The notes under the pieces are model-generated. The model saw only the letters and a list, made by a program, of their open reading frames with translations. It did not search any database and was not told the origin of the DNA. The position numbers and the translations under genes were made by a program. Below are positions 8,121 through 56,909 of a stretch of 64,000 bases of DNA, one piece after another (positions within the stretch are counted from its first letter, which is position 1; every line of letters starts with the position of its first letter). Source of the stretch: Terriglobia bacterium (GTDB lineage: Bacteria; Acidobacteriota; Terriglobia; UBA7540); assembly GCA_030041095.1 (NCBI GenBank), contig JASHON010000159.1, positions 1 to 64,000 of the forward strand, read 5' to 3'.

Positions 8121-8203
8121 CAGGCTAGACCAGCACGACTATCTCGTTCATCTTGCGGCACACCTGGCTACGTTCAAGAAACAAAAAAGCACGGGGAAAA
8201 CGC

Positions 8204-8595
8204 TCAAGTGGCACTGATTTGGTACTCGATGGTCTTGGTTGCTGCACAGGAGTCCTCCGGTCACAACGTCCTCACTAACGGCACTTCTGTGGATTCGCCG
8301 AATTTGCCGCGTCATTTGGGTGCACCACACGAATTCCCGAATAGCGTGTAAAGTCCGGGCCATTGAAAGTGAGCAGGCTGCTGATTCCGTAACCATTCAT
8401 AGCAGCAACGATGCTGGCGTCATGGACCCGAACGCCTGAAACGGAGTGGGCGACGACAAGCCGACGCCATTCGAGATGAATCGTGGGGATGCCGGGGAGA
8501 AGGATCAAAAGACATTCGGGCCATGAGGCTTCGCGGTCCGCCTCACCAGGGGTAAGACCCAATCTATTTCGGTCTACCGGTCGCGTACATGCATT
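8204..8595 (-). repeat. Diverged duplicate of the segment at 48713-49105
   Basis: From the common word TCAAGTGG onward this stretch parallels 48713-49105, with scattered substitutions and near-constant length. It includes the 3' part of a PIN-domain toxin gene and about 70 bases downstream of it. At 48 kb the same boundary coincides with the truncation of another gene, so the segment seems to have moved as a unit. Confidence 0.75.
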
Positions 8596-8604
8596 CCAGA
8601 GCCC
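8275..8604 (-). pseudogene. VapC-type PIN-domain toxin fragment
   Basis: The protein read here has the C-terminal two thirds of a PIN nuclease: NACTRPVDRNRLGLTPGEAD, then a VHDASIVAAMNGYGI segment and LLTFNGPDFTRY. It is very similar to the intact VapC at 48796-49251. The N-terminal part with the first catalytic Asp (DTNVLL in the intact copy) is missing, and upstream sequence belongs to another decayed frame. No antitoxin gene is next to it. The fragment should be inactive. Confidence 0.75.
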
Positions 8605-9095
8605 ACACAGCCAAATTTCGGTGAACTTGTCCTCACTAAGAGGATTCGTACTGAAAAACTCCACGATGACTTTGAGGTGCCCGGCATACTCAGTTTTGAT
8701 TCGGTCAAGTTCGTCTTTTCACGACTTCGCAACGTCGAACACTTCGGCAAGCTTGCAATTCAAGAGGACATTCATGTCTTCCCGCGTGGCCTTGGTAAAT
8801 CTATCTCCTCGCAGGGGTACACCGAACGCGATTTTTCTGATGGCGTCGTCCCTCTACGGAAGCAGTACAGTGTGGTCTTCATTCACCCAGTTCGGAAGTC
8901 CCTTCATTTGTTGGTGCGCCTGCGGGCCCCATTCCACCGCCAAATGCGGAAACACTTCCATTAGCATCATTGGAGAAAGTTATGATTCTCTCCCGCAGAT
9001 CTGAAGCTAAGGGATAATCCTTGAACGTCTCCGCAAAGTTGTGAAACGTATCACTATCAAAATAGATGTAGCGCTCCAGAGTTACGTTTCTAAGG
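8605..9095 (-). pseudogene. Decayed gene remnant of unknown family
   Basis: On the minus strand, protein-like pieces appear in changing frames: LERYIYFDSDTFHNFAETFK near 9070-9010, then FTKATREDMNVLLNCKLAEV near 8800-8750 and RIKTEYAGHLKVIVEFF near 8705-8650. Stops and frame changes separate them. A purine-rich AAGGAGG lies just upstream at about 9100. The pieces read in a constant direction, so this is likely one former gene, possibly another toxin-like PIN protein; I do not recognise it with confidence. Confidence 0.4.
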
Positions 9096-9152
9096 CCCTC
9101 CTTTCAGGTGCAGCGGGCTAATCGCGGGTGGGCCGCCAGGTTCGGTGGCCGG

Positions 9153-9398
9153 TTATACTGTAACGCGCACATTATCCCGCAAAAACTCGGGCGCAAAGTC
9201 AGCTCCATTCGGCCAGACGAGCGTATGAAACTCGGGATGAATTTGGAACTGACTGAATACAGCAGGGTCCCGCAGCGGTTCGAATATAGGGCCACGAAGA
9301 GCCGGCGCCAGATCGATCTCTCCGCTTGTCCCGTCGCGAAAGCGGAGCCACACGACGTGGCCGGTCATGTAGCGTGCCTCGACAATGTGGTAGTCCAT
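9153..9398 (-). CDS. DUF2442 small protein
   Basis: This protein of about 81 residues starts MDYHIVEARYMTGHVVWLRF and contains the F-x-D-G-x-x-G-E-I-D-L and PEFHTLVWPNGADFAPEFL motifs that define DUF2442. Such proteins are usually encoded next to DUF4160 proteins, as here: the DUF4160 stop is only a few bases upstream of this start, so translation is probably coupled. The pair is often suspected to be a toxin-antitoxin-like unit, but no biochemical role is established to my knowledge. I chose the internal ATG because the longer frame overlaps the neighbour and lacks a binding site. Confidence 0.8.
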   Translation of the reverse strand: MDYHIVEARYMTGHVVWLRFRDGTSGEIDLAPALRGPIFEPLRDPAVFSQFQIHPEFHTLVWPNGADFAPEFLRDNVRVTV

Positions 9399-9403
9399 GA
9401 TGC

Positions 9404-9661
9404 TTACTCCAGTGGGGCAATGCGCCTGAGCGGTTGCCCTTGCCTCGCAAGTTGCCAGTTCTCGATCAGTTCTTCCCTGTGAAGGCTTGCCCATTCCAGC
9501 ACGAGTCGCAAGGCTCTTGCCGGAAATTGGCCGTGAATCTTTCCTGATTCCACCTCGACCGAGATTTCGTATTCGCCGTAAACCGCGTGAAAATGTGCAG
9601 CGCCGTGCTCGCTGTAGAATATGCCGATCACGATACCGAGGAATCGAGAAATCTCAGGCAT
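9404..9661 (-). CDS. DUF4160 small protein
   Basis: The 85-residue protein has the DUF4160 pattern: MPEISRFLGIVIGIFYSEH followed by a HFHAVYGEYEISVEVESGKI segment rich in aromatic and acidic residues, and a C-terminal helix (LVLEWASLHREELIENWQLA). It is the first gene of a two-gene unit with the DUF2442 gene. Both sit in a zone with other toxin-antitoxin relics and a tRNA scar, which suits a mobile accessory origin. Both open reading frames look intact. Confidence 0.8.
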   Translation of the reverse strand: MPEISRFLGIVIGIFYSEHGAAHFHAVYGEYEISVEVESGKIHGQFPARALRLVLEWASLHREELIENWQLARQGQPLRRIAPLE

Positions 9662-10341: not shown

Positions 10342-10932
10342 GTGCGGCATCCCGTCGGTTCTGGCGAAGAAAAATACCTGATCGAACTAAAGCAATCCTC
10401 GGAAGGCCGGCGCGATCGACTCATCCCACTCCTGTCCCAGGCAATTTTGCAGGCGCGAGTCTTCAGCAAGCTCTTACCACAATCCCCGGTTCCGGTGGTG
10501 ATTATTGCGGCGGATCGGGTCCCGGATGCGGTGGCCGAACAGCTCAAGGCATTCGCAAGGCTGTACGCCCCGGATGTCGGCATTGGGATCGTGGACCTGG
10601 AAGGATTCTGTGACTTTCAAGGCTTCGGTTTGGAAAGGTTTAATGCTCAGCGCGCCGTGGCCTCCACTCGTAGTTCACTTCCGAAGAACGGGTCATCGGT
10701 ATATTTGTTCTCCGACCTGAACCAATGGATGCTAAAGTTGCTTCTGGTGCGGAGCATTCCCGAATCCATGCTTTCCGCCCCGCGAGAACAGTACCAAAGT
10801 GCTGCACAGTTGGCGCGCGCAGCAGACGTTTCAGTGATGAGCGCATCTCGCCTCGTCCGGCAGTTATGGGGCGCTGGCGTAAGTCAAATCCGCGAGCGCC
10901 TTTCACGGGACAATGCCGAGGTTACGACATGA
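10342..10932 (+). CDS. Unknown protein with C-terminal winged HTH
   Basis: The 196-residue product has an N-terminal alpha/beta part (YLIELKQSSEGRRDRLIPLL then SPVPVVIIAADRVPDAVAEQ and IGIVDLEGFCDFQ) that resembles a nuclease- or sensor-like fold, and a C-terminal winged helix (QSAAQLARAADVSVMSASRL). No clear ribosome binding site precedes the first ATG, and the sequence may lack its original N-terminus because it lies just after the integration scars. The stop overlaps the region upstream of the cytochrome gene. I do not recognise a family; an AbiE-like regulator is one possibility but the domain order differs. Confidence 0.5.
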   Translation: MRHPVGSGEEKYLIELKQSSEGRRDRLIPLLSQAILQARVFSKLLPQSPVPVVIIAADRVPDAVAEQLKAFARLYAPDVGIGIVDLEGFCDFQGFGLERFNAQRAVASTRSSLPKNGSSVYLFSDLNQWMLKLLLVRSIPESMLSAPREQYQSAAQLARAADVSVMSASRLVRQLWGAGVSQIRERLSRDNAEVTT

Positions 10933-10987
10933 TCGCCTTTGCGTCCGCCGAGCCGCTGACAAAGTCTACGTGCAAATTCGGACCGTT

Positions 10988-12010
10988 ATGTCGAAGGTCG
11001 AGCGCTATTGTTGCCCGTTGAAGATCGTCATCGCGTTCTGGGGCATCTTGCTTGCCACTGTGAGCGCGACCAGCATACTTTGCTTTTCCACCGGCCACGC
11101 TACCGTCCGTTCCATACCTGTCTGGCCCTACGGAACTGACCCTGGTAAATCGAGCCCTGCTCTGAACGGGCGACCGGACACCAGTCTCAAACAATTACCC
11201 GGCGCGAAGCTTAGATTCACGGAAGCGCAAATACAGAATCCTTTCGGCCCGGCGGACTGGTTCCCTGGTGATCATCCTGCCATGCCCGCTATCGTGGCGT
11301 TCGGCCGCAAGCCCCTCATCATGGCGTGTGCCTTCTGTCATATGCCGAACGGCAAGGGTAGGCCGGAGAACGCAGGTATAAGCGGGCTTCCCGTTTCTTA
11401 CTTCGTAGAGCAAATGCACGAGTTCAAAGAGGGCCAGCGGAGATCGGCGGATTCGCGGAAAAGAAACACGGCCCTAATGGCTTCGTTCGCGAAGGCCATG
11501 ACGAACGAGGAGATTCAGCAAGCGGCTGAGTACTTCGGCTCTATGAAGTGGACACCCTGGATCAAGGTGGTGGAAACAGACGTGGTGCCGAAAACGCGCA
11601 CATCCAGTGGTATGTATATCCCGATTCCCGGCGCCGGAAAAGAAAAGCTGGGCGAAAGAATCATTGAGGTTCCGGTGGATCCCTACGGCACCGAAGAACT
11701 TCGGAATCCGCGCTCGGGATTCATCGCCTATGTTCCTTTCGGAAGCATTGAAAAAGGTAAAGCGATAGTTGAGGGCAGGAATAAGCGGACGTCTGCGTGC
11801 GCGGTTTGCCACGGCCCTGGCTTGAAAGGTCTAGGGCCGGTGCCCGGAATCGCCGGACGCTCGCCGAGCTATATGGCGCGGCAACTCTACGACATGCAGC
11901 AAGGCACGCGAAACGGAAGCTGGACGAAGTTGATGATACCAGTTGTCAGAAACATGAATGAGGAAGAGATACTGGATGTCGTTGCCTACGTCTCGTCGCT
12001 GCAGCCTTAG
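10988..12010 (+). CDS. Exported diheme cytochrome c
   Basis: The protein has an N-terminal hydrophobic segment (IVIAFWGILLATVSATSILCF) and two heme c sites, CAFCH at residues 114-118 and CAVCH at 271-275. The two halves share the pattern of a heme motif followed by a helix (YFVEQMHEFKEGQRRS; YMARQLYDMQQGTRNG), typical of tandem cytochrome c4-like domains. It should carry electrons in the periplasm between a dehydrogenase and a terminal oxidase. I start it at the ATG at 10988, which places the signal sequence at the N-terminus; an upstream in-frame ATG would add 25 charged residues. Confidence 0.88.
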   Translation: MSKVERYCCPLKIVIAFWGILLATVSATSILCFSTGHATVRSIPVWPYGTDPGKSSPALNGRPDTSLKQLPGAKLRFTEAQIQNPFGPADWFPGDHPAMPAIVAFGRKPLIMACAFCHMPNGKGRPENAGISGLPVSYFVEQMHEFKEGQRRSADSRKRNTALMASFAKAMTNEEIQQAAEYFGSMKWTPWIKVVETDVVPKTRTSSGMYIPIPGAGKEKLGERIIEVPVDPYGTEELRNPRSGFIAYVPFGSIEKGKAIVEGRNKRTSACAVCHGPGLKGLGPVPGIAGRSPSYMARQLYDMQQGTRNGSWTKLMIPVVRNMNEEEILDVVAYVSSLQP

Positions 12011-14911: not shown

Positions 14912-15892
14912 TTAGTGTGCATAGGCCAGGTAAGGAACAAAGCCCGGGTTGATGGTCCGGATGCAATACACGGACGTTGTGGCGGTGATGTACAAGCTGC
15001 GGTAGCCCGGTCCTCCCCACGCAAGGTTGGCAGGCTGCTCTGGCATGACGATGGTTCCCAGGTGCTGCCCCTCGGGGTTCCACACCCAGATGCCTTTGGG
15101 TCCCACCACGTACAGGTTACCCTTCACATCAACCTTCATACCGTCCGGAACGCCACCCCGATCATTTTCGCTGCCGAAAATCCGGCCGTCGGACAAAGTC
15201 CCACCGGGACTGAACCGATAGACGCGAACATTGCGTTCGGCGCTGTCATCGACGTAAAACAGCTTGCCATCCGGGGAGAACGCCAAGCCGTTGGGCTGAG
15301 TTAAATCTTGCGTCAGGAGCCGGACGTTTCCCTTGGAGTCGAGGCGATAGACTCCTTGAAACGGGATTTCCTGCTTCTGGCCTTTCGGCAAATCGAGGGT
15401 GGGGTCAGTGAAATAGAGCGCCCTGTCCGGCCCTAACACGACGTCATTCGGGCTGTTAAATCTCTTTCCTTGGTAGCGGCCAGCGAGAATATCGTACTTT
15501 CCGTTGGGTGTAACCCGAATGATGGCGCGCAGCACGCTTGCGCAATCGATAAGCTGATGTTCAAGGTTGTAGGTGTTTCCATCCGGGTCGCCCAGAGCGA
15601 TCACGCGTTCTCGCCGTCCGTCCGGATCGACGCGGTAAATGGCGTTTTGAACCTCATCGCTGACATAGAGGAAATTCCGTTGGTCCCAGATTGGCCCTTC
15701 TGTGAAGCCAAAGCCCGTCGCCACTCGCGTGAGTTTAGAGCGGCGCGGTATGAGCTTCCAGAATTGCGGTGAAAGAGCCTGCAACGCGAATTTCCGAGGC
15801 GAGCGTGCAAGCAGACGACAGACTGGGAAAGCGAGAATGGCCACGGCCACAGCCGCGAGCCAGAATTTTTTAATTCCGGAATCAAGCGTCAA
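14912..15892 (-). CDS. SMP-30/gluconolactonase-like exported protein
   Basis: The 326-residue protein has an N-terminal signal anchor (FWLAAVAVAILAFPVCRLLA) and a six-bladed propeller of the SMP-30/gluconolactonase/LRE type. The metal-binding positions of the family are recognisable: Glu in FTEGPIWD, Asn in NSPNDVVLG and QPNGLAFSPDG, and Asp in GVPDGMKVDVKGNLYV. Such enzymes hydrolyse sugar lactones. It starts at a TTG with AAGGAG eight bases upstream. A cytochrome c gene lies 28 bases upstream in the same direction, so the pair may oxidise sugars to lactones in the periplasm and open them there. Confidence 0.82.
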   Translation of the reverse strand: MTLDSGIKKFWLAAVAVAILAFPVCRLLARSPRKFALQALSPQFWKLIPRRSKLTRVATGFGFTEGPIWDQRNFLYVSDEVQNAIYRVDPDGRRERVIALGDPDGNTYNLEHQLIDCASVLRAIIRVTPNGKYDILAGRYQGKRFNSPNDVVLGPDRALYFTDPTLDLPKGQKQEIPFQGVYRLDSKGNVRLLTQDLTQPNGLAFSPDGKLFYVDDSAERNVRVYRFSPGGTLSDGRIFGSENDRGGVPDGMKVDVKGNLYVVGPKGIWVWNPEGQHLGTIVMPEQPANLAWGGPGYRSLYITATTSVYCIRTINPGFVPYLAYAH

Positions 15893-15920: not shown

Positions 15921-16778
15921 TTAGTGTGGGCCGACGAAAAGCACTCTTACCTTCGGGGGCGCTTCCGAGGCTTTCGCCAGAAAGCTGACCATGTCATCCA
16001 AGTCCCGTGAACTGAGTCTTGTACCATAATTCGAAGGCATGAGGGAGCGCGGCTCATGCCGTAAGCTGGACAAATCCGACTTCATCAGGAGATGAAAGGC
16101 CCCGTCCGGCGTTTGCAACTGCAAAGAGAAATTGTCCTCATTCCGCGCAATGCCGGCATACCTCTGGCCCTGGCGCGTCACTGCAATAACGATATCCTGC
16201 TGCGGGCCAAGATTCTTGTTTGGACTGACGATAGCCTGGCGAACCTCCCGGAGCGAATGGGTTCGAGTGTAAGTCGAGAGATCGGGCCCGATAAATCCCC
16301 CTTTGCCAAGAACCCTGTGGCAGGTTGAGCAGGCGGCTTTGCCGAAAAATAACTGCCGGCCGCGATGAGGGTTTCCTGGAAGCGTTGCAAAAGCATGTTG
16401 CCCTTGGAGAACGCGGAGATAACGGACGACCGCGCCGATCCTGGGGACGCCCAACGACTCAAACGAGGGCATGCCGGAAGCGGGAATGCCATGTTCGACG
16501 ATCCCGAACAACTCCGCGTCCGAGAGCTGGCGGACTGTCGGATCGGACGCAATGTTGGGCGCGTGCTCGCCTCCCCGGCCGTCCAAGCCGTGGCAGAAGG
16601 AGCAGTTCGATGCGAAAATAGGCCTGCCCCGGCCGGCAATTTCGCTTGCGGGCCGCTCCTTCCGCTTTGCGCAGGCACTCGAGAACAGCAAGACCAAGAA
16701 AAGGATACAAAAGATCGAGGCTGTGGCTGCAACAGCTCGCCGCGATTTCTTAAAACCCGATCCAAGCCCGACAGGCAA
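15921..16778 (-). CDS. Two-domain cytochrome c lipoprotein
   Basis: A hydrophobic leader ends in LLFSSAC with Cys36 as a plausible lipidation site. The first heme site is CSFCH (59-63), with SGMPSF providing a likely axial Met; the second is CSTCH (150-154) followed by the pattern GFIGPDLSTYTRTHSLREVR typical of heme-binding domains fused to oxidoreductases, with a late SLMPSNYG as second axial Met. The protein should sit on the membrane facing the periplasm and carry electrons. It is the first gene of a unit with the SMP-30-like lactonase. The start codon is a TTG with a weak binding site, so the N-terminus is uncertain. Confidence 0.82.
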   Translation of the reverse strand: MPVGLGSGFKKSRRAVAATASIFCILFLVLLFSSACAKRKERPASEIAGRGRPIFASNCSFCHGLDGRGGEHAPNIASDPTVRQLSDAELFGIVEHGIPASGMPSFESLGVPRIGAVVRYLRVLQGQHAFATLPGNPHRGRQLFFGKAACSTCHRVLGKGGFIGPDLSTYTRTHSLREVRQAIVSPNKNLGPQQDIVIAVTRQGQRYAGIARNEDNFSLQLQTPDGAFHLLMKSDLSSLRHEPRSLMPSNYGTRLSSRDLDDMVSFLAKASEAPPKVRVLFVGPH

Positions 16779-17294: not shown

Positions 17295-18566
17295 ATGGGA
17301 ACCGTGAATCAACGCACTCGGCGTAATTTCCTGGTTGGGGCTGGCGCGTCCATCGTAGCTCTTTTACCGGAGAAATTGTTCGCCGCTCGCGCGGTGCGGT
17401 CCGGGGGACGTTTGGCCAAGGCGCCGTCTGCGCCGAACACCGCCAATATTTACGACGAGTTGGGAGTGACCACGATTATCAACGGATGGGGAACGATTAC
17501 TTTGATCGGAGGGTCGCTCATGCCGCCGGAAGTGGTGGCGGCGATGGAGGCGGCTTCCAAACATTATGTCAGTATCCCGGATTTACTGGAGGCTACGGGG
17601 GATCGCATCGCCAAAATGCTTGAAGGCCTGCCGCCCGATCATATGGCAACCGTTACCTCCGGGGCGGCTGGGGCCATCATGTGCGGCGTGTCAGGGGTGC
17701 TGACGGGCGAGAATCAGGAACTCATCCAACGGCTGCCCGACCTCACGGGAATGAAGAGCGACGTTATTTTTCAGAAGGCTCACCATGAGGCTTACGGTTA
17801 CAATCAGCAAATCTTAGCCAGCGGAGTAAAAATAATCGAGGTGGAGTATCCGGAGGATGTACGGCGCGCCGTGAATGGGCGAACTGCTTTGCTTTATTTT
17901 GCAAATTATTTGAATGCGGCCGGCCGCATCAAGGTAGATGCCTGGGCCAAGCTTGCCAAGGAACTGGGTGTGCCGTGCTTCAACGATTGTGCGGCGGACA
18001 CCCCGCCGATCGCTCACCTGACGGCTTATAACAAGATGGGTTATGACCTGGTTGCCTGGAGTGGAGGTAAGGCGATTCGAGGCCCGCAGTGCGCTGGAAT
18101 GCTCATTGGCCGGAAAGATCTGGTACGTGCGGCCCGGCTGAACGCCGCTCCTTTTGACCCGACGCTGGGGAGGGGAATGAAAGTGGGCAAGGAGGAAATT
18201 GTCGGCATGTGGAAGGCGGTGGAAGTCTATCTTCGGCAGGATTCGAAGACCGAAACAGACGATTGGTGGGACCGCCTGGAATATATCTCTAAACAGCTCA
18301 GAAAAGTTCAGGGAGTGACGACGGCGTTTTACGTTCCCCCGATCGCCAACCATGTGCCCACCATGCGAATCGAGTGGGATCCGCGCCAGTTCTCTCTGAC
18401 GACGGACCAGGCCTTGGATTTCTTAAAGAACGGCAAACCTTCCGTGCTCTTGCAGGAAGAGAACGATGGCGTATCCTTAGCCATGAATTCCTTTATGTTG
18501 CGCCCCGGCGACGACCGAATTGTCGCGTCTCGGCTCAAACAAATGTTCCAGGCCCATCGCGCTTGA
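17295..18566 (+). CDS. Tat-exported SelA/DgaE-like PLP enzyme
   Basis: The 423-residue protein has a twin-arginine leader (RTRRNFLVGAGASIVALL) and then a PLP fold-type I domain of the SelA/DgaE group. The predicted Schiff-base lysine is K259 in SGGKAIRGPQ, a motif shared with D-glucosaminate-6-phosphate ammonia-lyase; INGWGTITLIGGSLMPP and SGAAGAIMCG are other family signatures. Export of a PLP enzyme is unusual because the cofactor must be loaded in the cytoplasm, which Tat allows. A paralogue lies at 21460-22731. The substrate is not known; an amino sugar or hydroxy-amino acid elimination is plausible. Selenocysteine synthesis is unlikely because true SelA is cytoplasmic. Confidence 0.8.
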   Translation: MGTVNQRTRRNFLVGAGASIVALLPEKLFAARAVRSGGRLAKAPSAPNTANIYDELGVTTIINGWGTITLIGGSLMPPEVVAAMEAASKHYVSIPDLLEATGDRIAKMLEGLPPDHMATVTSGAAGAIMCGVSGVLTGENQELIQRLPDLTGMKSDVIFQKAHHEAYGYNQQILASGVKIIEVEYPEDVRRAVNGRTALLYFANYLNAAGRIKVDAWAKLAKELGVPCFNDCAADTPPIAHLTAYNKMGYDLVAWSGGKAIRGPQCAGMLIGRKDLVRAARLNAAPFDPTLGRGMKVGKEEIVGMWKAVEVYLRQDSKTETDDWWDRLEYISKQLRKVQGVTTAFYVPPIANHVPTMRIEWDPRQFSLTTDQALDFLKNGKPSVLLQEENDGVSLAMNSFMLRPGDDRIVASRLKQMFQAHRA

Positions 18567-18629
18567 AACAAAAAACAGTCATTGAAACGACTGCCTGCGA
18601 GATGGCGACTTCAGCGTTTGCGGCCTCGC

Positions 18630-19094
18630 TCACCTGGCGCTTTTCACCGCAATGGCGGAGATCTCAATGCGGGCGCGGTTCACTAAACGGGCAACCTGCA
18701 CCGTGGTTCGAGTCGGCCTGGGGTTTGGGAAGAACGTTTGGTAGACCCCATTCATGGCGGCGAAGTCGTGAACGTGCGCAAGGTACACGTTCACGGCGAC
18801 CACGTCACTCATCTGGAAGCCCGCCCTCTTCACGACCCTTTCTATGGTTTCCAGCGCAGCGCGCGTTTGGGGACGGATGCCGCCTGCGACGGGTTCTCCG
18901 CGCTGGTTGAGGCCTTGCTGTCCGGCAACATAAAGCGTGTTGCCCACGACAATCCCATCGCTAAAAGGCAATGCGGCCGCGTGGCCGGGAAGACGAATGG
19001 CACGGCGAGATTGAGCATGGGCTAGCGATGGTGTTTCCAGCGCGAGTGCGGCGCCGAGCAGGGTGACTGCAATGGCTTTTTTACTGATCATCAT
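18630..19094 (-). CDS. Exported RidA-family enamine/imine deaminase
   Basis: The 154-residue protein has a signal peptide (residues 1-27, LAHAQ) before a full RidA/YjgF domain. GIVVGNTLYVAGQQGLNQRG, the R-P-Q-T-R-x-A-L-E-T motif and RTTVQVARLVNRARIEISAI are diagnostic, with the conserved catalytic Arg in TRTTVQV. RidA proteins hydrolyse reactive enamine/imine intermediates released by PLP enzymes. Here the gene converges on the gene of a Tat-exported PLP lyase, so a periplasmic clean-up role is a natural reading. AAGGAGG lies upstream of two adjacent ATG codons. Confidence 0.88.
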   Translation of the reverse strand: MMISKKAIAVTLLGAALALETPSLAHAQSRRAIRLPGHAAALPFSDGIVVGNTLYVAGQQGLNQRGEPVAGGIRPQTRAALETIERVVKRAGFQMSDVVAVNVYLAHVHDFAAMNGVYQTFFPNPRPTRTTVQVARLVNRARIEISAIAVKSAR

Positions 19095-19670
19095 TACTCC
19101 TCCTTGATTTTAGGAATACCGGCAAATCGTGCCCGATATGTATACAGCCACGAAAGGTGGATGGACAAGTCATTGTACGCTACAAGCATCATTCGAGGTT
19201 TTTGGGAGGTGCAGAATTTCGAGACGGTTTGAAAGAGTCGTCAAAACGAAAATCCTGCCGCTCGATTTAATTGTCCTGGCCTTCCTCTATTCTTTGGCGT
19301 CCACCGCTATCTGTTTGTGAGTCCGCGGTACGAAGGGCGCTATTTCCCTCCCTCTGAGGGCGCTCGACGGGGACGTTGGTTTAATTACGAGGCGATAAAA
19401 TCTGGCCTTTGCCAGAAGGGAACAATCTTCAAGATGAAGTTTGGATTGATTCGCGGTATGGATGGATTGCGGTGGTAGATGGCTCAACGAAATCGGTGAG
19501 GAGCGGACGTGGCGATGATTCCCTTCGAGCGGGTGAGTCCGATCGATCTTCTGAAAATCCATCACGAGTTCCAAATGAACCCCTCGGTCGCGCGGGTGTC
19601 GCTCCATCTAAGGTCCGAAGGGCAGTTGACCTGGGATCACTTGGCGAGGCTTGGGTAACCGGGGAAGGGC
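19095..19670. other. Long intergenic stretch, no gene recognised
   Basis: About 575 bases separate the ridA-like gene from the PQQ dehydrogenase gene. Short open frames on both strands have no motifs and no convincing ribosome binding sites. It likely holds promoters for the two divergent genes. No RNA structure or repeat stood out. Confidence 0.45.
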
Positions 19671-21347
19671 ATGGTTCATAGGTTTATGGCACACAAACGG
19701 CAACTCGTAGCGATCGTTGCCGCTGTCGTCTGCTTCGGCGTTTGGGCGAAGGCATGGCAGAATCCCGACCTCCCGGTGGCCAGCCTGGTCGACGTCAAGC
19801 CTTCTGACTTGTTAAAGCAGCCGCCTGGCGCGAATTGGCCGTCGTATAACGGCGATTACACAGGCCGGCGTTACAGCGGTCTCGCGCAGATCAACGTGCA
19901 TAACGTTCGCGATCTGAGCGCGCAGTGGGTTTTTCATCCGAGAAACTCGCCTGGAATGGAAACGACACCGGTGGTCATTAATGGCGTCATGTTCATCACT
20001 TCGGGCAATGACGCCTATGCTTTGGATGCCCGAACCGGCCGTGAAATCTGGCATTACTCGCGTCCTCTTTCCGAAGGACTCATCGATGACGCCTCTGCCC
20101 ATCACAATCGCGGGGTCGCCGTCTGGCACTCTCGAGTTTATATGGAAACTGATAACGCTCACCTGCTGTGCCTTGACGCGCAGTCGGGCTATCTTATTTG
20201 GGACGTAGCGTATGCAGATATTCACAAGAACTACGGGGCCACCAGCGTTCCTTTGATCGTCAAGGGCGAAGTGCTGGTGGGCACGTCGGGCGGGGACGAT
20301 GGAGTTCGCGGTTTCCTTGCCGCGTTTGACGCTCGCACGGGAGCACTGCGGTGGCGATTTTGGACTATCCCGGGGCCCGGCGAATTCGGTTCTTCAAGCT
20401 GGCCTGGAAAGAGCTATTGGCATGGCGGCGGCACCACGTGGATGCCGGGAACTTACGATCCCAAGCTCAATACGCTTTACTGGGGAACGAGCAATCCTTC
20501 GCCGGACTTTAATGGCAGTGTACGTCCGGGTGATGATCTCTATACCGATTGCGTTCTGGCTCTTAATCCCGATACAGGCAAGCTGAAATGGTATTTTCAA
20601 TTTACGCCCCACGATCTTTATGATTACGATGCGACGGAAACCCCGGTGCTGATTAATGCAATTTACAACGGGAAGCCGCGCAAACTGCTGGTTGAGGCCA
20701 ATCGGAACGGGTTTCTCTACGTGCTGGATCGGACCGATGGAAAATTTCTCGGCGCCACGCGGTTCGCGAAGAAATTAAACTGGGCGGAGGGAATTGATCG
20801 TAGCGGCCGACCGATACTTACCAAGGTGAAGCCTTCCCCTGCGGGTACTAAGATTTGCCCGGGGTTTTCCGGAGCTACCAACTGGTACTCGCCCTCATTC
20901 AACCCCGCTACCCGGGCTTTCTATTTTATCGCGCTTGAGGACTGCGACCTCTACTATGTGAAACCCAAAGCGTACGCCCCGGGGCGAACTGATTACGACA
21001 CAGGTACGCAGCGTGTCCCGGGTAAGCACGGTCAAAAGATTTTGCTGGCTTATCGCCTGAATGCAACTCGAATCGAATGGCGATATCCTCAGGTGGGTTC
21101 GGGAACATCGTGGGCAGGAACGATGACTACGGCGGGCGGGCTTGTGTTCTTCGGAGATGATTCTGGAAGTCTTGAAGCAGTAGACGCAGGAACCGGCGCC
21201 CCACTTTGGCATTTCAATACTGGGCAGCAAATCCACTCGTCGCCGATGAGCTTTGCAATCAACGGCAGGCAATACGTGGCCATCGCTGCGGGAAGCGATC
21301 TTTTTGCCTTTGCGTTGCCGGGTCAGGACGCAGGCGCTCCAAAGTGA
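19671..21347 (+). CDS. PQQ-dependent dehydrogenase (quinoprotein)
   Basis: The 558-residue protein carries a signal peptide and an eight-bladed quinoprotein propeller. Visible family marks are NWPSYNGDYTGRRYSGLAQI, W-motif repeats such as ALDARTGREIWHYSRP and the catalytic-Asp segment FTPHDLYDYDATETPVL. Two things depart from methanol and ethanol dehydrogenases: the adjacent-cysteine pair that stacks on PQQ is missing (the region reads DDASAHHNRGVAVW), and the usual Glu of the G-A-E-Y-G calcium-site motif is replaced in GTSGGDDGVRG. No cytochrome c domain is attached. It is preceded by GGGAAGGG. The stop codon lies at the edge of a dispersed repeat. Substrate unknown; it probably feeds cytochrome c. 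Confidence 0.85.
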   Translation: MVHRFMAHKRQLVAIVAAVVCFGVWAKAWQNPDLPVASLVDVKPSDLLKQPPGANWPSYNGDYTGRRYSGLAQINVHNVRDLSAQWVFHPRNSPGMETTPVVINGVMFITSGNDAYALDARTGREIWHYSRPLSEGLIDDASAHHNRGVAVWHSRVYMETDNAHLLCLDAQSGYLIWDVAYADIHKNYGATSVPLIVKGEVLVGTSGGDDGVRGFLAAFDARTGALRWRFWTIPGPGEFGSSSWPGKSYWHGGGTTWMPGTYDPKLNTLYWGTSNPSPDFNGSVRPGDDLYTDCVLALNPDTGKLKWYFQFTPHDLYDYDATETPVLINAIYNGKPRKLLVEANRNGFLYVLDRTDGKFLGATRFAKKLNWAEGIDRSGRPILTKVKPSPAGTKICPGFSGATNWYSPSFNPATRAFYFIALEDCDLYYVKPKAYAPGRTDYDTGTQRVPGKHGQKILLAYRLNATRIEWRYPQVGSGTSWAGTMTTAGGLVFFGDDSGSLEAVDAGTGAPLWHFNTGQQIHSSPMSFAINGRQYVAIAAGSDLFAFALPGQDAGAPK

Positions 21348-21418
21348 CGGACTGTCGGGTAGCTCGGCCGTCTCGGCGGCAATTGCCGAGGCCGGCAAGA
21401 TGCCGGCGTGCCGCGAAA
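21343..21418. repeat. Palindromic repeat, copy 1
   Basis: The stretch begins AGTGACGGAC and contains the palindromes CGGCAATTGCCG and GCCGGCAAGATGCCGGC. A related copy with the same order of parts lies at 22790-22877, on the other side of the second PLP enzyme gene. The TGA stop of the PQQ dehydrogenase gene is formed at its left edge. Confidence 0.65.
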
Positions 21419-21459
21419 AGGCACTGTGTTTTGCAACCTTCAGAAAGACGGAGAAAGCC

Positions 21460-22731
21460 ATGGACTTCAATATCAAAACCGGCCGCAGGTCATTCCTGGG
21501 TGGAGCGGGTTTTGCCCTTGGATCGCTAATCAGCGGGGGAATATCCTTCGCGAGGCCTTATCGTGACAAGGACAGCTTGGGTTCCGGGTTGCCGGCAAAA
21601 GTCACGGGACTGGGCGACACCGGAGATGTGTATAAGGAATTGGGAGTTGTAACCGTCATCAACGGCCAAGGCACGATGACCATGCTGGGCGGTTCGCTGA
21701 TTCCTCCCGAGGTCGAGCTCGTGATGGCGGACGCGGCGCGCCACTATGTTCATATCCCGGCCTTGGAGGTGGCGGCGGGCAAGCGAATCGCGCAGATGCT
21801 CAAGTTGCCCCCGGGCTGCACGGGACTGGTAACTTCAGGAGCGGCCGGCGCCATGACCTGCGGATATGCCGGCATTCTTACCGGAGACGACCCCGAGCTT
21901 ATCCAGCGGGTGCCGGACTTAACCGGGATGAAATCTGAAGTCATTATTCAGAAGGCTCATCGCTATCCTTTTGACCACCAGATTCGCGCGACAGGTGTGA
22001 AACTGGTGGAGATAGAATGGCGCGAAGACTTAGCTAAGGCAGTCAATCCGAGAACGGCAGCGATGCACTTCACCAACTACCTTAATGCCGAAGGAAGAAT
22101 CAAGGTTGATGAATGGGTGAAGCTCGCCATGCAATATCGCCTTCCTTGCTTTAACGATGCCGCTGCCGACACGCCGCCGATTTCTCACTTGTGGGATTAC
22201 GTGAATATGGGCTATGACCTGGTAACGTTCAGCGGAGGCAAGGCCATTCGCGGACCCCAATGCGCCGGGCTGCTTTTGGGCCGCGAGAATCTGATTCATT
22301 ACGCGCTGCTCAACAACAGTCCTTACGAAGACACGGTTGGGCGCGGCCAGAAAGTCGGCAAGGAAGAGATTGTTGGGATGGTTAAGGCGCTCGAGATCTA
22401 CCTGAATCAGGACCCCAAAGCCTTAACCGAGGAGTGGTGGGCACGCCTCGACACCATCTCTCGCCGGGTGACCAAAGTGCCCGGAGTGAGCACCGCATAT
22501 TATTTGCCCCATGTTGCGAATCATGTTCCCACGATGCAAATCAGTTGGGACCCCCGCAAAATCAGTCTAACCCCGAATCAGGCTCAGCGAGCGCTTGAGA
22601 CTGGGAACCCGTCGATTGTCTTGGGAAACACGCGAATGGGCCTGGAAATGAATTCCTTCATGCTGCAGGCGGGAGAAGAGAAGATTATCGCGCGGGCGCT
22701 GGTGAACCTCTTTCGCGCCCATCCCGCTTGA
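21460..22731 (+). CDS. Tat-exported SelA/DgaE-like PLP enzyme, paralogue 2
   Basis: The 423-residue protein is a close paralogue of the product of 17295-18566. The Tat leader reads GRRSFLGGAGFALGSLISGG, and the predicted PLP lysine is K261 in the identical SGGKAIRGPQCAG motif. Blocks such as INGQGTMTMLGGSLIPPEVE, LIQRVPDLTGMKSEVIIQKA and YVNMGYDLVTFSGGKAIRGP run in parallel through both proteins. I start at the ATG at 21460; a longer frame overlaps the PQQ dehydrogenase and would bury the Tat signal. It is flanked by two copies of a palindromic repeat, which could mark a past duplication or just target preference. Confidence 0.8.
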   Translation: MDFNIKTGRRSFLGGAGFALGSLISGGISFARPYRDKDSLGSGLPAKVTGLGDTGDVYKELGVVTVINGQGTMTMLGGSLIPPEVELVMADAARHYVHIPALEVAAGKRIAQMLKLPPGCTGLVTSGAAGAMTCGYAGILTGDDPELIQRVPDLTGMKSEVIIQKAHRYPFDHQIRATGVKLVEIEWREDLAKAVNPRTAAMHFTNYLNAEGRIKVDEWVKLAMQYRLPCFNDAAADTPPISHLWDYVNMGYDLVTFSGGKAIRGPQCAGLLLGRENLIHYALLNNSPYEDTVGRGQKVGKEEIVGMVKALEIYLNQDPKALTEEWWARLDTISRRVTKVPGVSTAYYLPHVANHVPTMQISWDPRKISLTPNQAQRALETGNPSIVLGNTRMGLEMNSFMLQAGEEKIIARALVNLFRAHPA

Positions 22732-54155: not shown

Positions 54156-54884
54156 ATGCCAACGGCTCGAAAGCACCCTGTCGTCCAGATCTCTCTTGAC
54201 CTGACTTCTGTCGCCGAGGCACTGGATCACGCCCGCAAGGCAGTACGGGCGGGAGTGGATTGGCTGGAGGCAGGAACACCGCTCATTCTGGCCGAAGGTC
54301 TGCGAGCGGTGAAGGTCCTACGCCAGGAGTTTCCCACGCGGCCCATTGTGGCGGATTTGAAGACGATGGACGGAGGATACCTTGAGGCAGAAATGATGGC
54401 CAAGGCGGGAGCCAATTATGTGGTGGTGATGGCGCGGGCGCATCCGGCCACGGTGCAGGCGGTGGTGAAGGCTGGAAAGGATTATGGAGTGAAGGTCATG
54501 GGCGATGATCTCGGCTGCCCGGACAAGGCGGCCGCCGCCCGCGCCCTCGAAGATTTGGGAGTGGATTTTATCGTGCACCACGTCGGCTATGACGAGCGGC
54601 GCGATCCGAAAGTGATCGCCGCTCATGCTGGCCGCGCGCCCAGTCCGCTGGACGAGCTTCGGAAGGTCGTTAACGCCGTCCACATTCCCGTGCAAGCTGT
54701 CGGCGGTCTTTCCGTGGCTGAGGTGATGAAGTTGCCCGAGTATGGGGTCTTTCATTTGGTTCTTGGGGCGCCACTCACAGTCGATGCCGACGCTTTTAAG
54801 TCGCCTGCCCATGATCTCGAGGGGTTGTTGCGAGAGATCATCGCCAGGTTGAACGCGACAGAGTCCTCGCCGACGGCCGGCTGA
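54156..54884 (+). CDS. OMPDC-superfamily enzyme (hexulose-6-P synthase / KGPDC-like)
   Basis: The 242-residue TIM barrel belongs to the orotidine monophosphate decarboxylase suprafamily. ADLKTMDGGYLEAEMMAKAG holds the characteristic Asp-x-Lys-x-x-Asp motif, and the N-terminal VQISLDLTSVAEALDHARKA and late GGLSVAEVMKLPEYGVFHLV are also typical. Members make or split hexulose-6-phosphates or decarboxylate 3-keto-L-gulonate-6-phosphate. Here it leads an operon with a zinc dehydrogenase and a sugar isomerase, so a sugar or sugar-acid catabolic step is more likely than formaldehyde fixation; no PHI isomerase is present. Confidence 0.85.
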   Translation: MPTARKHPVVQISLDLTSVAEALDHARKAVRAGVDWLEAGTPLILAEGLRAVKVLRQEFPTRPIVADLKTMDGGYLEAEMMAKAGANYVVVMARAHPATVQAVVKAGKDYGVKVMGDDLGCPDKAAAARALEDLGVDFIVHHVGYDERRDPKVIAAHAGRAPSPLDELRKVVNAVHIPVQAVGGLSVAEVMKLPEYGVFHLVLGAPLTVDADAFKSPAHDLEGLLREIIARLNATESSPTAG

Positions 54885-54935
54885 TGAAGCGAATCGGCGT
54901 GGCTCTCGTCCCAAGGGCGGCAGGTGGAGGTTTCT

Positions 54936-55991
54936 ATGCAGTCGATGATGGCGCTCGTCCATTACGCACTCGAGAAGGGCAGTGTGGCTTTGCGAGAGGT
55001 GCGTCGGCCACCGCGCCTTGAGGACGATGAAGTGCTGCTTGAAAGCAAGGCCGTTGGCGTTTGCGGCAGTGACGTGCACCAGTTTCACAACACCCAGAGC
55101 TGGAAGGTGAATGTACCGGTGATTCTTGGGCATGAATTCTGTGGCGTCATTGCGGAAGCTGGAAAGGCGGTGAAAGGGTTCAAAGCGGGAGACCGTGTCG
55201 CCAGTGAGACGGCGGCCAGGATTTGCGGCCAGTGCCTCTATTGCCGCAGCGGAGCATACAATCTGTGCCCATCCAGGCTTGGTTTCGGTTACGGGCTCGA
55301 CGGAGCCATGGCTGAATACGTCAAGGTTCCTGCCCGATGTTTGCACCATCTGCCTTCCTCGGTTTCGTTTGAAAAAGCCGCGCTGACGGAACCTTGCTGC
55401 GTTGCTTGCAACGCCGTTTGCGTCAAGACTTCGCTGAAGCCAGGGGACAGCGTATTGATTCTTGGCCCCGGAACCATTGGATTGCTTTCGTTGATTTTCG
55501 CAAAGCTTTGCGGAGCCGGCTGGGTGGGACTTGCCGGCCTTCCGCAGGACCGGCCGCGGCTGGAACTCGGTCGCCTGCTGGGAGCTACTCGGATTTTGGA
55601 TGGCACAGCGGAAGAGAACTTGTCGGTACTTCGTTCTGTGGGAGATGGCATGGGCGCCGATGTGGTGATCGATTCAACCGGTCACTCGGAAGCCCTCCGC
55701 TTTGCCTTGGCTGCGGTTCGGCCTGGCGGTCAAATCACCAAGGTCGGTTGGGGACCGCAGCCGCTCCAGTTCTCTCTCGATCCTCTCGTTCAAAAAGCCG
55801 CTCGCCTTCAGGGCAGCTTCAGTCACAATTATCCGATTTGGGAAAGAGTGATCGCGCTGCTCGCTTCCGGCCAGCTCGATCCGACGCCGCTCATCCACCG
55901 GGTTGAGCCACTGGTGAACTGGAAGCTCTGTTTTGAAGAGATGACTGGCGGCGAGGCAGTGAAAAATGTTGTCCGGCCCGGCCTGGAGTAG
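54936..55991 (+). CDS. Zinc-dependent sugar alcohol/polyol dehydrogenase
   Basis: The protein of about 351 residues is a medium-chain dehydrogenase. Catalytic-zinc residues appear in VGVCGSDVHQFHN and GHEFCGVI, and the four-Cys structural zinc lobe in ARICGQCLYCRSGAYNLCPS. The nucleotide-binding region is GDSVLILGPGTIGLLSLIFA. The profile is that of sorbitol, iditol or galactitol-phosphate dehydrogenases. I choose the ATG at 54936 with AGGTGGAGG upstream; a GTG four codons earlier is possible. It is the second gene of the sugar operon, about 50 bases after the first. Confidence 0.87.
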   Translation: MQSMMALVHYALEKGSVALREVRRPPRLEDDEVLLESKAVGVCGSDVHQFHNTQSWKVNVPVILGHEFCGVIAEAGKAVKGFKAGDRVASETAARICGQCLYCRSGAYNLCPSRLGFGYGLDGAMAEYVKVPARCLHHLPSSVSFEKAALTEPCCVACNAVCVKTSLKPGDSVLILGPGTIGLLSLIFAKLCGAGWVGLAGLPQDRPRLELGRLLGATRILDGTAEENLSVLRSVGDGMGADVVIDSTGHSEALRFALAAVRPGGQITKVGWGPQPLQFSLDPLVQKAARLQGSFSHNYPIWERVIALLASGQLDPTPLIHRVEPLVNWKLCFEEMTGGEAVKNVVRPGLE

Positions 55992-56030
55992 ACGACAAAG
56001 CAGCCGTCAATTGGAGTCAGAATCAGACTT

Positions 56031-56909
56031 ATGAAACTGGCAGCCTTTCCCAAGTGTTTCATGGATCAGCTCGTCGTTCAACATACCCTGACACTGTTCG
56101 AGTGGATCGAGATGGCTGCGGATCTGCCGATCGACGGCCTCGAAATGTACGAAGGCGCATTCCAGAACTTCCAGCCGGATTATTTGAGCAAAGTTCGCAG
56201 AGCGCTCGAACGGAAGCATCTCGAAGCTCCCATGTTGTGCTGCTCGCCCGATTTCACATCTCCCGATGCTCAGGAACGGCGCCGCCAGGTCGAGCGCGAG
56301 AAGCAGATGATTGATGTAACTGAGGCACTGGGCGGCAGGTTCTGTCGTGTGCTTTCCGGCCAGCGCCGTCCCGAAGTCTCGCGCGCGCGGGGCATCGCTT
56401 GGGTGGTGGATTCAATCCGCGAGCTCCTGGATTATGCTTCCGCGAAGAATGTGGTGCTGACCATGGAGAACCACTATAAAGATAACTATTGGCAACACCC
56501 CGAGTTTGCCCAGAAAAGTGAGATTTATCTTGAGATTATCAATCGGATTGAATCTCCTTGGTTTGGAGTGCAGTACGATCCCTCAAACACGTTGTTAGCC
56601 GGCGAGGATCCGATTGAGTTGCTGCAGAAAATCAAGCACCGTGTGGTCACCATGCATGCCAGCGACCGCAAATTGAAGCCTGGCCACGCGCTTGAGGAAT
56701 TGCGCGCGGTGGAAGATGCCGTGGGTTACGCTGCCATTCTCACGCATGGAGTGATTGGTACCGGGTTGAATGACTATCCGAAAATTTTTGCTATCCTGCG
56801 CGAAGCCGGCTTTGATGGTTGGGTTTCAATTGAGGATGGAGTCAACGGCATGGATGAACTGCATCAGTCGGCGAAGTTTCTGCTGCCTTTCATCCACGGA
56901 AAAGCCTAA
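56031..56909 (+). CDS. Sugar phosphate isomerase/epimerase (xylose isomerase-like TIM barrel)
   Basis: The 292-residue TIM barrel has the metal-binding set of this family: Glu in NVVLTMENHYKDNYW, Asp in GVQYDPSNTLL, His in VVTMHASDRKLKPG and Glu in DGWVSIEDGVNG. Such enzymes interconvert keto-sugars or epimerise them. It is the third gene of a likely operon with the OMPDC-like enzyme and the zinc dehydrogenase, 39 bases downstream. A RAYT-derived repeat begins ten bases after its stop codon. Confidence 0.87.
   Translation: MKLAAFPKCFMDQLVVQHTLTLFEWIEMAADLPIDGLEMYEGAFQNFQPDYLSKVRRALERKHLEAPMLCCSPDFTSPDAQERRRQVEREKQMIDVTEALGGRFCRVLSGQRRPEVSRARGIAWVVDSIRELLDYASAKNVVLTMENHYKDNYWQHPEFAQKSEIYLEIINRIESPWFGVQYDPSNTLLAGEDPIELLQKIKHRVVTMHASDRKLKPGHALEELRAVEDAVGYAAILTHGVIGTGLNDYPKIFAILREAGFDGWVSIEDGVNGMDELHQSAKFLLPFIHGKA

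Follow-up and report, generated by a model that had tools for sequence, protein, structure and literature searches.

Why should a bacterium carry two pyridoxal phosphate (PLP) enzymes with export leaders and, between them, an exported RidA and a quinoprotein? The question is raised by positions 17295-22731 of a stretch of 64,000 nt from a Terriglobia bacterium, an uncultured acidobacterium of soil (contig JASHON010000159.1, assembly GCA_030041095.1), called here the window. Its contig, C151, belongs to a 4.88-Mb genome that is 95.5% complete, and the relatives of the window are Acidobacteriota records. A reading made from the sequence alone had proposed that the four genes form an undescribed periplasmic route for the deamination of amino sugars or amino acids. 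The set itself, with its export leaders, is confirmed by sequence analysis, with all four genes intact, and the interpretation given to it is partly supported. The explanation that we favour, with moderate confidence, is that the two enzymes, PLP-1 and PLP-2, act in the periplasm as ammonia-lyases on unphosphorylated 2-amino-2-deoxyaldonates, of which D-glucosaminate is the likeliest, that RidA hydrolyses the enamine they release and that oxidation takes place upstream of them.

A scan for relatives found at least 568 loci; the 80 that were retrieved came from Acidobacteriota and Bacteroidota. The distribution is patchy: when the phylum was sampled evenly, 28 of 291 good genomes had a strong lyase match. 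The hypothesis had been built on the first loci and was therefore put to a held-out test on another 20 lyase loci and 20 control windows, which were retrieved later from the same sample. Below, G000 is the window genome, G0xx are relative genomes, L0xx and L1xx are fetched loci and Cxx are contigs.

Candidate exported lyases and their active site

Both enzymes begin with a twin-arginine translocation (Tat) leader and retain the lysine motif (K259 and K261), as had been read from the sequence. PLP-1 carries RRNFLVGAGASIVALL (leader RRNFL) and PLP-2, which starts at the ATG at 21460, carries RRSFLGGAGFALGSLI (leader RRSFL); an alternative, longer open reading frame (ORF) of PLP-2 from 21253 would overlap the quinoprotein gene. 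Application of a crude motif rule, a twin arginine with a hydrophobic stretch after it, showed that Tat-type leaders are conserved in 102 of 109 lyase relatives and in 24 of 26 held-out lyases, compared with 14% of control ORFs. Most of the lyases missed by the rule were ORFs with an over-long start. TatC is encoded in the window genome, and the lyases are predicted to be exported by the Tat system. The window genome also has a third lyase paralogue (C156:14219), which forms a divergent pair with an amidohydrolase (L043: 6680-8026 on the minus strand, 8178-9449 on the plus strand); both are leaderless, unlike their orthologues, and the two may have gone back to the cytoplasm together.

The two enzymes match the DgaE-like subfamily but score below the cut-offs of its model TIGR01437 (171 bits for PLP-1 and 159 for PLP-2; cut-off 385.3) and of the DgaE/DGL model NF047797 (126 and 134 bits; cut-off 600). 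The sole Pfam match of PLP-1 is PF03841 (SelA), which would suit an ordinary SelA, or unrelated genes whose N-termini resemble leaders by chance. This explanation is very improbable and is refuted by the results: the pair reaches only 31.9 and 34.6 bits with the curated SelA model TIGR00474, far under its cut-off of 267.9, by which SelA proper was rejected, and nearly the whole family carries Tat leaders and has conserved exported partners.

The AlphaFold2 (AF2) model of PLP-2 (predicted local distance difference test 88.9, predicted template modelling score 0.84) is of fold-type I. In fold comparison, the model was closest to Cap15 (8t7j; Z 39.3) and to DGL, the glucosaminate-6-phosphate lyase of Salmonella (Z 38.5 over 348 residues, 27% identity), followed by SelA at Z 25.6 and lower. 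For a survey of the active site, 111 homologues were aligned to DGL and read in its numbering. The Schiff-base lysine (K213) and the aspartate that contacts N1 were present in all 111, and Arg-226, which in DGL adjoins the substrate carboxylate, was arginine or lysine in 106. The arginines of the 6-phosphate site had gone almost completely (R301 0/111, R332 6/111, R346 0/111), and the window pair has none of them. His-163 was found in none of the homologues and His-162 in four. The held-out lyases gave the same picture for the lysine (26/26), His-163 (0/26) and R346 (0/26).

The loss of His-163 may bear on the presence of RidA. In DGL this strictly conserved histidine is the proton donor; the H163A variant is still active, an intermediate absorbing at 293 nm builds up and the product is protonated in solution (PMC9529869). 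The authors of that study suggested that the histidine is there to prevent the release of a potentially toxic enamine, of the type that RidA removes (PMC9529869). In the loss of His-163, and in this alone, the exported family is by its sequence a natural H163A. PLP-1 and PLP-2, which are 57% identical, represent sister clades and do not stem from a recent duplication; G000 and G036 have retained members of both clades next to each other. One lyase homologue, in L044 (9779-11059; G037:C17:389799-390956), has a single in-frame TGA between its halves and is either a pseudogene or an assembly error.

The same fold comparison brings in another explanation, in which the enzymes would be O2-dependent PLP oxygenases or decarboxylases, like Cap15 or the periplasmic PvdN, that modify a secreted amino acid or sugar-amino-acid. 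Cap15, a PLP monooxygenase-decarboxylase of this fold that depends on O2 (PMC6384614), is the top match, tied with DGL, which counts against a lyase; it also lacks His-163, and PvdN is a PLP enzyme of the periplasm (PMC7497351). However, Cap15 is phosphate-dependent (PMC6384614) and keeps arginine at DGL positions 301, 332 and 346, where the window pair has none, and the genes near the lyases are catabolic, with no biosynthetic genes among them. We consider this explanation quite unlikely.

Conserved partners of the lyases

The neighbourhood of the lyase is conserved, as are the leaders, so that the two conditions named as refuting the original reading left it standing. In the 55 loci with more than 5 kb on both flanks, RidA was found in 32, an amidohydrolase in 28, an RraA-like protein in 19, a quinoprotein in 17 and an SMP-30 protein and a cytochrome c in 13 each. 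In the held-out test, RidA adjoined the lyase in 13 of 20 loci and in none of the 20 control windows (Fisher P = 6e-6), the amidohydrolase in 13 loci and one control (P = 7e-5) and the RraA-like protein in eight loci and no control (P = 0.002). The adjoining RidA, amidohydrolase and RraA-like proteins, in relatives and held-out loci, mostly have Tat or Sec leaders too. By these counts, the core conserved in Acidobacteriota and Bacteroidota consists of the Tat lyase, an exported RidA and an exported amidohydrolase of deacetylase type, often with an RraA-like aldolase. The quinoprotein was rejected as a universal member (24 of 101 loci; 3 of 20 held-out loci against 0 of 20 controls, not significant). 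Consequently, of the co-occurrence envisaged for the four genes across Acidobacteriota, the link between lyase and RidA holds and that with the quinoprotein does not extend to the core. In the open-access literature, no paper was found that describes an exported RidA with Tat PLP lyases, which is weak evidence of novelty, and none on COG3964 amidohydrolases.

The RidA of the window, placed between the lyases and exported as had been proposed, is well over the gathering score of PF01042 (27.3) and marginally under the cut-off of the archetype model TIGR00004 (101.3 against 106.25 bits). It has a Sec leader, lies on the strand opposite to the lyases and is not in an operon with them.

Bacteroidota loci typically run in the order amidohydrolase, BASS/PanS-like transporter, RraA, Tat-RidA, Tat-lyase and a lipoprotein Rid-like protein. 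On the 5' side of this set, recurrently upstream of the amidohydrolase, stands a glucose/sorbosone-dehydrogenase-like protein fused to cytochrome c (e.g. L119: 6804-8570), an apparent functional stand-in for the acidobacterial quinoprotein and cytochrome, though of a different family. In two further loci (L045: 7457-12503; L047: 8763-11375), a Tat-leader mannonate dehydratase (UxuA) and enolase-superfamily proteins adjoin the Tat lyase, and L045 additionally has a Tat-leader protein of the dihydrodipicolinate synthase (DHDPS) family. As exported enzymes that would produce or consume 2-keto-3-deoxy acids, they hint that the metabolism of sugar acids in the periplasm may be broader.

The active site of the quinoprotein had been called atypical, and it is so only mildly. 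The protein is over the cut-off of the model for alcohol dehydrogenases that use pyrroloquinoline quinone (PQQ) (TIGR03075, 480.05 bits) and under that of the acido-empty-quinoprotein group A (TIGR04528, 650 bits). In 20 relatives, the catalytic aspartate (19/20), the tryptophan that contacts PQQ (19/20), the metal-binding asparagine (18/20) and the extra aspartate, as in PedH and XoxF, and an arginine (18 or 19 of 20) are kept. The departures are the metal-binding glutamate, replaced by aspartate in 17 of 20, and the vicinal Cys-Cys pair, which is Ala-Ser in the window and has no cysteine in any relative. The name 'empty quinoprotein' was not accepted as proof that PQQ is absent, since most of the residues for cofactor and metal are retained. 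The protein is likeliest a PQQ-scavenging sugar dehydrogenase, possibly of lanthanide type, that acts upstream of the lyase, and the SMP-30-family protein, probably an aldonolactonase, would open the lactone. This reorders the earlier proposal, in which deamination fed electrons to PQQ and cytochrome c; most plausibly, the quinoprotein oxidises the sugar before the lyase acts.

Predicted substrate, route and state of the locus

The nature of the product is suggested by loci of the PLP-2 type. In five loci of this clade (L063-L067), the Tat-lyase, a PfkB kinase and an aldolase for 2-keto-3-deoxy-6-phosphogluconate (KDPG) lie near one another, almost contiguously in L063, L064, L065 and L067. 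In L064-L067, lyase and kinase are separated by a galactonate-type permease of the major facilitator superfamily (MFS), which follows the lyase immediately or almost so. A KdgR-related IclR regulator is present in L063, L065, L066 and L067. The L063 kinase gives 266 bits with a KDPG aldolase/kinase fusion model and 150 bits with the model for kinases of 2-keto-3-deoxygluconate (KDG) and 2-keto-3-deoxygalactonate (KDGal), and the L063 aldolase exceeds the cut-off of the Eda model (195 against 156 bits). In the window genome, a KDG-type kinase (286 bits) lies within about 0.1 kb of the single KDPG aldolase on contig C121. The substrate of a PLP enzyme must carry an amine, and the kinase and aldolase have to be supplied with a 2-keto-3-deoxyaldonate; both demands are satisfied by a 2-amino-2-deoxyaldonate. 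Conversion of D-glucosaminate into KDG is the parsimonious case that we infer from the gene context, which thereby supports the amino-sugar side of the original proposal.

Two other substrates have to be weighed. The exported lyases might be deaminases of D-amino acids of the D-serine/D-threonine type, derived for example from peptidoglycan, with the sugar genes incidental. OngC deaminates D-Ser and D-Thr besides glucosaminate (PMC9537276), RidA family proteins act on 2-aminoacrylate (PMC5636819), and the linked exported amidohydrolase is of deacylase type. In contrast, the KDG-type kinase, KDPG aldolase, galactonate-type MFS permease, KdgR-like regulator, SMP-30 lactonase and sugar-type dehydrogenases that recur by the lyase would all be superfluous for D-serine, and this explanation is unlikely. 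Alternatively, the same enzyme logic could serve another 2-amino-2-deoxy sugar acid (galactosaminate, mannosaminate, an amino-uronate or one of muramic type), and the substrates of PLP-1 and PLP-2 could differ. The two sister clades side by side in G000 and G036, the match of the kinase to KDG/KDGal models and the Tat-leader UxuA and enolase-superfamily dehydratases next to some relatives would suit this explanation; the sequence does not discriminate here, but D-glucosaminate is parsimonious by analogy with Dga and Ong, and another sugar acid seems improbable.

If D-glucosaminate is the substrate, the following route can be proposed. The lyases would be loaded with PLP in the cytoplasm and then exported folded via Tat. 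Upstream of them, an exported amidohydrolase would remove the N-acyl group (in relatives; in the window genome, the copy is leaderless and sits on a different contig), and the quinoprotein, cytochrome c and SMP-30 lactonase would turn free sugar into the aldonate that feeds the lyase, so that the electrons would probably come from this oxidation. An alpha,beta-elimination by the exported lyases would yield the enamine of KDG. Because the on-enzyme proton donor of DGL is lost, the reactive enamine would leave the lyase, and exported RidA would hydrolyse it to KDG and ammonia. KDG would be imported by the MFS or a BASS permease, phosphorylated by KDG kinase and split by KDPG aldolase; alternatively, exported aldolases of RraA-like or DHDPS type would cleave it outside.

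The window seems to hold a reduced version of this system (Table 1). The four genes are part of a wider set, which includes, on the upstream side, a diheme cytochrome c and the SMP-30-type lactonase. The minus strand carries RidA as well as the lactonase and cytochrome genes, which ruled out a single operon of all four. The locus of G036 contains SMP-30, cytochrome c, TonB transporter, PLP-1, RidA, RraA-like, DUF4380, quinoprotein, a second, Tat-leader RidA, PLP-2 and amidohydrolase; DUF4380 is intact there, between RidA and the quinoprotein, and so is the TonB transporter. Since both are fossils in the window, the module, larger elsewhere, is present here in a copy that has eroded in part.

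Table 1. Features of the lyase locus in the window
Feature	Position	Strand	Evidence
SMP-30/gluconolactonase-family protein, leader or anchor, conserved neighbour	14912-15892	-	PF08450 162 bits; orthologues L034, L038, L044, L046
Diheme c-type cytochrome, lipoprotein-like leader, conserved neighbour	15921-16778	-	PF13442, PF00034 and TIGR02603 over cut-off; orthologues L034, L037, L044, L046
TonB-dependent transporter remnant, C-terminal 116 of 1167 residues	16847-17194	-	tblastn; 66% identity to G036
PLP-1, DgaE/SelA-like PLP enzyme, Tat-type leader, 423 aa, Schiff-base K259	17295-18566	+	PF03841 over cut-off; TIGR01437 171 bits (cut-off 385); RRNFL leader; orthologues L034, L035, L036, L055
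RidA, enamine/imine deaminase family, Sec leader with AHA-Q site	18630-19094	-	PF01042 113 bits; TIGR00004 101 bits; relatives with signals adjoining lyase
DUF4380 gene remnants, three fragments	19281-19655	+	tblastn; PF14315
Quinoprotein dehydrogenase-like, Sec leader, DYD (lanthanide-type) motif, no vicinal Cys pair	19671-21347	+	TIGR03075 482.5 bits; TIGR04528 546 bits; residue survey
PLP-2, PLP-1 paralogue, Tat-type leader, Schiff-base K261	21460-22731	+	TIGR01437 159 bits; AF2 model

Several observations weigh against the proposed route, in this genome or in general. The window, when searched, had no RraA-like gene, intact TonB receptor or amidohydrolase, so that neither the amidohydrolase nor the RraA-like aldolase of the core survives in it, and the only amidohydrolase orthologue of the genome is the leaderless one on C156. 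No close homologue of the MFS permease was found in the window genome (best 30% identity), and the adjacency of kinase and aldolase is confined to a sub-clade of the PLP-2 type. R301 is back as arginine in 6 of 26 held-out lyases, which are distant ones, and the motif rule for Tat leaders also passes the 14% of control ORFs. PqqE (TIGR02109) is missing from the window genome (best 87 bits against a cut-off of 381), and PQQ would therefore have to be scavenged, by import possibly; PqqE is over the cut-off in three of 40 genomes of the order, two of which (G015, G016) have lyase loci that include the quinoprotein. In the window strain, the supply to the route or the outflow from it may differ, or the route may be decaying.

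Two further observations concern the window. A second diheme cytochrome c (10913-12010, plus strand), weakly similar to the periplasmic diheme shuttle PdsA, is encoded about 3 kb from the SMP-30 gene and came into consideration as a possible partner. Further away (54156-56909), hexulose-6-phosphate-synthase-like, Zn-dependent sugar-alcohol dehydrogenase-like and xylose-isomerase-like proteins stand in a row, a leaderless set for sugar catabolism.

Relation to known systems

On a broader scale, the loci may represent a widespread periplasmic amino-sugar pathway of Acidobacteriota and Bacteroidota, a generalisation to which we give an even chance. Tat-exported DgaE-like lyases without an internal proton donor would hand enamine hydrolysis over to a dedicated exported RidA, and deamination, KDG formation, oxidation, delactonisation, deacetylation and even aldol cleavage would take place outside the inner membrane. 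If this is true, the deamination of amino-sugar acids, so far known only inside cells, moves out of the cytoplasm, and RidA gains a specific partner and a reason, namely lyases without the histidine that stops DGL from releasing the enamine. Candidate functions would also be available for soil and marine families that have none assigned: Tat DgaE-like proteins, exported RidA, RraA-like proteins and empty quinoproteins. The cultured relatives Arenibacter palladensis, Flagellimonas pacifica and Daejeonella lutea make direct testing possible.

Among the nearest known systems is DGL (7lc0/7lce; PMC9529869), with which the window lyases share fold-type I, the PLP lysine, the aspartate and the carboxylate arginine. 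Unlike DGL, they are predicted to be exported, lack the His-162/163 proton donor and the phosphate arginines, are paired with RidA, lie far under the DgaE cut-offs and have no phosphotransferase system. Cap15 (8t7j; PMC6384614) is the closest in fold and also has no His-163, but it belongs to antibiotic biosynthesis, with the phosphate-site arginines kept and another gene context. PLP enzymes are normally cytoplasmic, and export of the present ones is well in line with their leaders; they are not without precedent outside the cytoplasm, because PvdN of Pseudomonas is a fold-type I PLP enzyme in the periplasm (PMC7497351). PvdN differs in that it tailors a siderophore, belongs to another subfamily and has no RidA known to take part. 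The quinoprotein resembles the TIGR04528 group and the lanthanide-dependent PQQ dehydrogenases of PedH type in its DxD motif (PedH, XoxF), and departs from them in the missing vicinal disulfide and in the aspartate at the place of the metal-binding glutamate.

A close parallel in pathway logic is the ong oxidative chitin pathway of Pseudoalteromonas, in which a deacetylase, a PLP lyase, RidA and KdgK convert N-acetylglucosaminate (GlcNAc1A); all are required for growth on GlcNAc1A, and the role of RidA is essential and unexplained (PMC9537276). The window genome itself has on contig C30 (L138: 7017-10266) a leaderless RidA between a fragment of a glycoside hydrolase family 20 (GH20) hexosaminidase and a fold-III gene similar to D-serine dehydratase/alanine racemase, an arrangement that resembles the cytoplasmic ong type, and the exported and the cytoplasmic strategies may coexist in the same cell. 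Like the ong genes, the loci of the relatives combine a deacetylase-type amidohydrolase, a PLP lyase, RidA, a KDG kinase and a TonB receptor, with a predicted conversion of GlcNAc1A into KDG; of these shared partners, only RidA is local in the window. The difference is that the ong lyase is of fold-type III and the metabolism is cytoplasmic, whereas here the lyase is of fold-type I, the enzymes are mostly predicted to be exported, and the set is enlarged by genes for a quinoprotein, an SMP-30 lactonase and RraA-like proteins.

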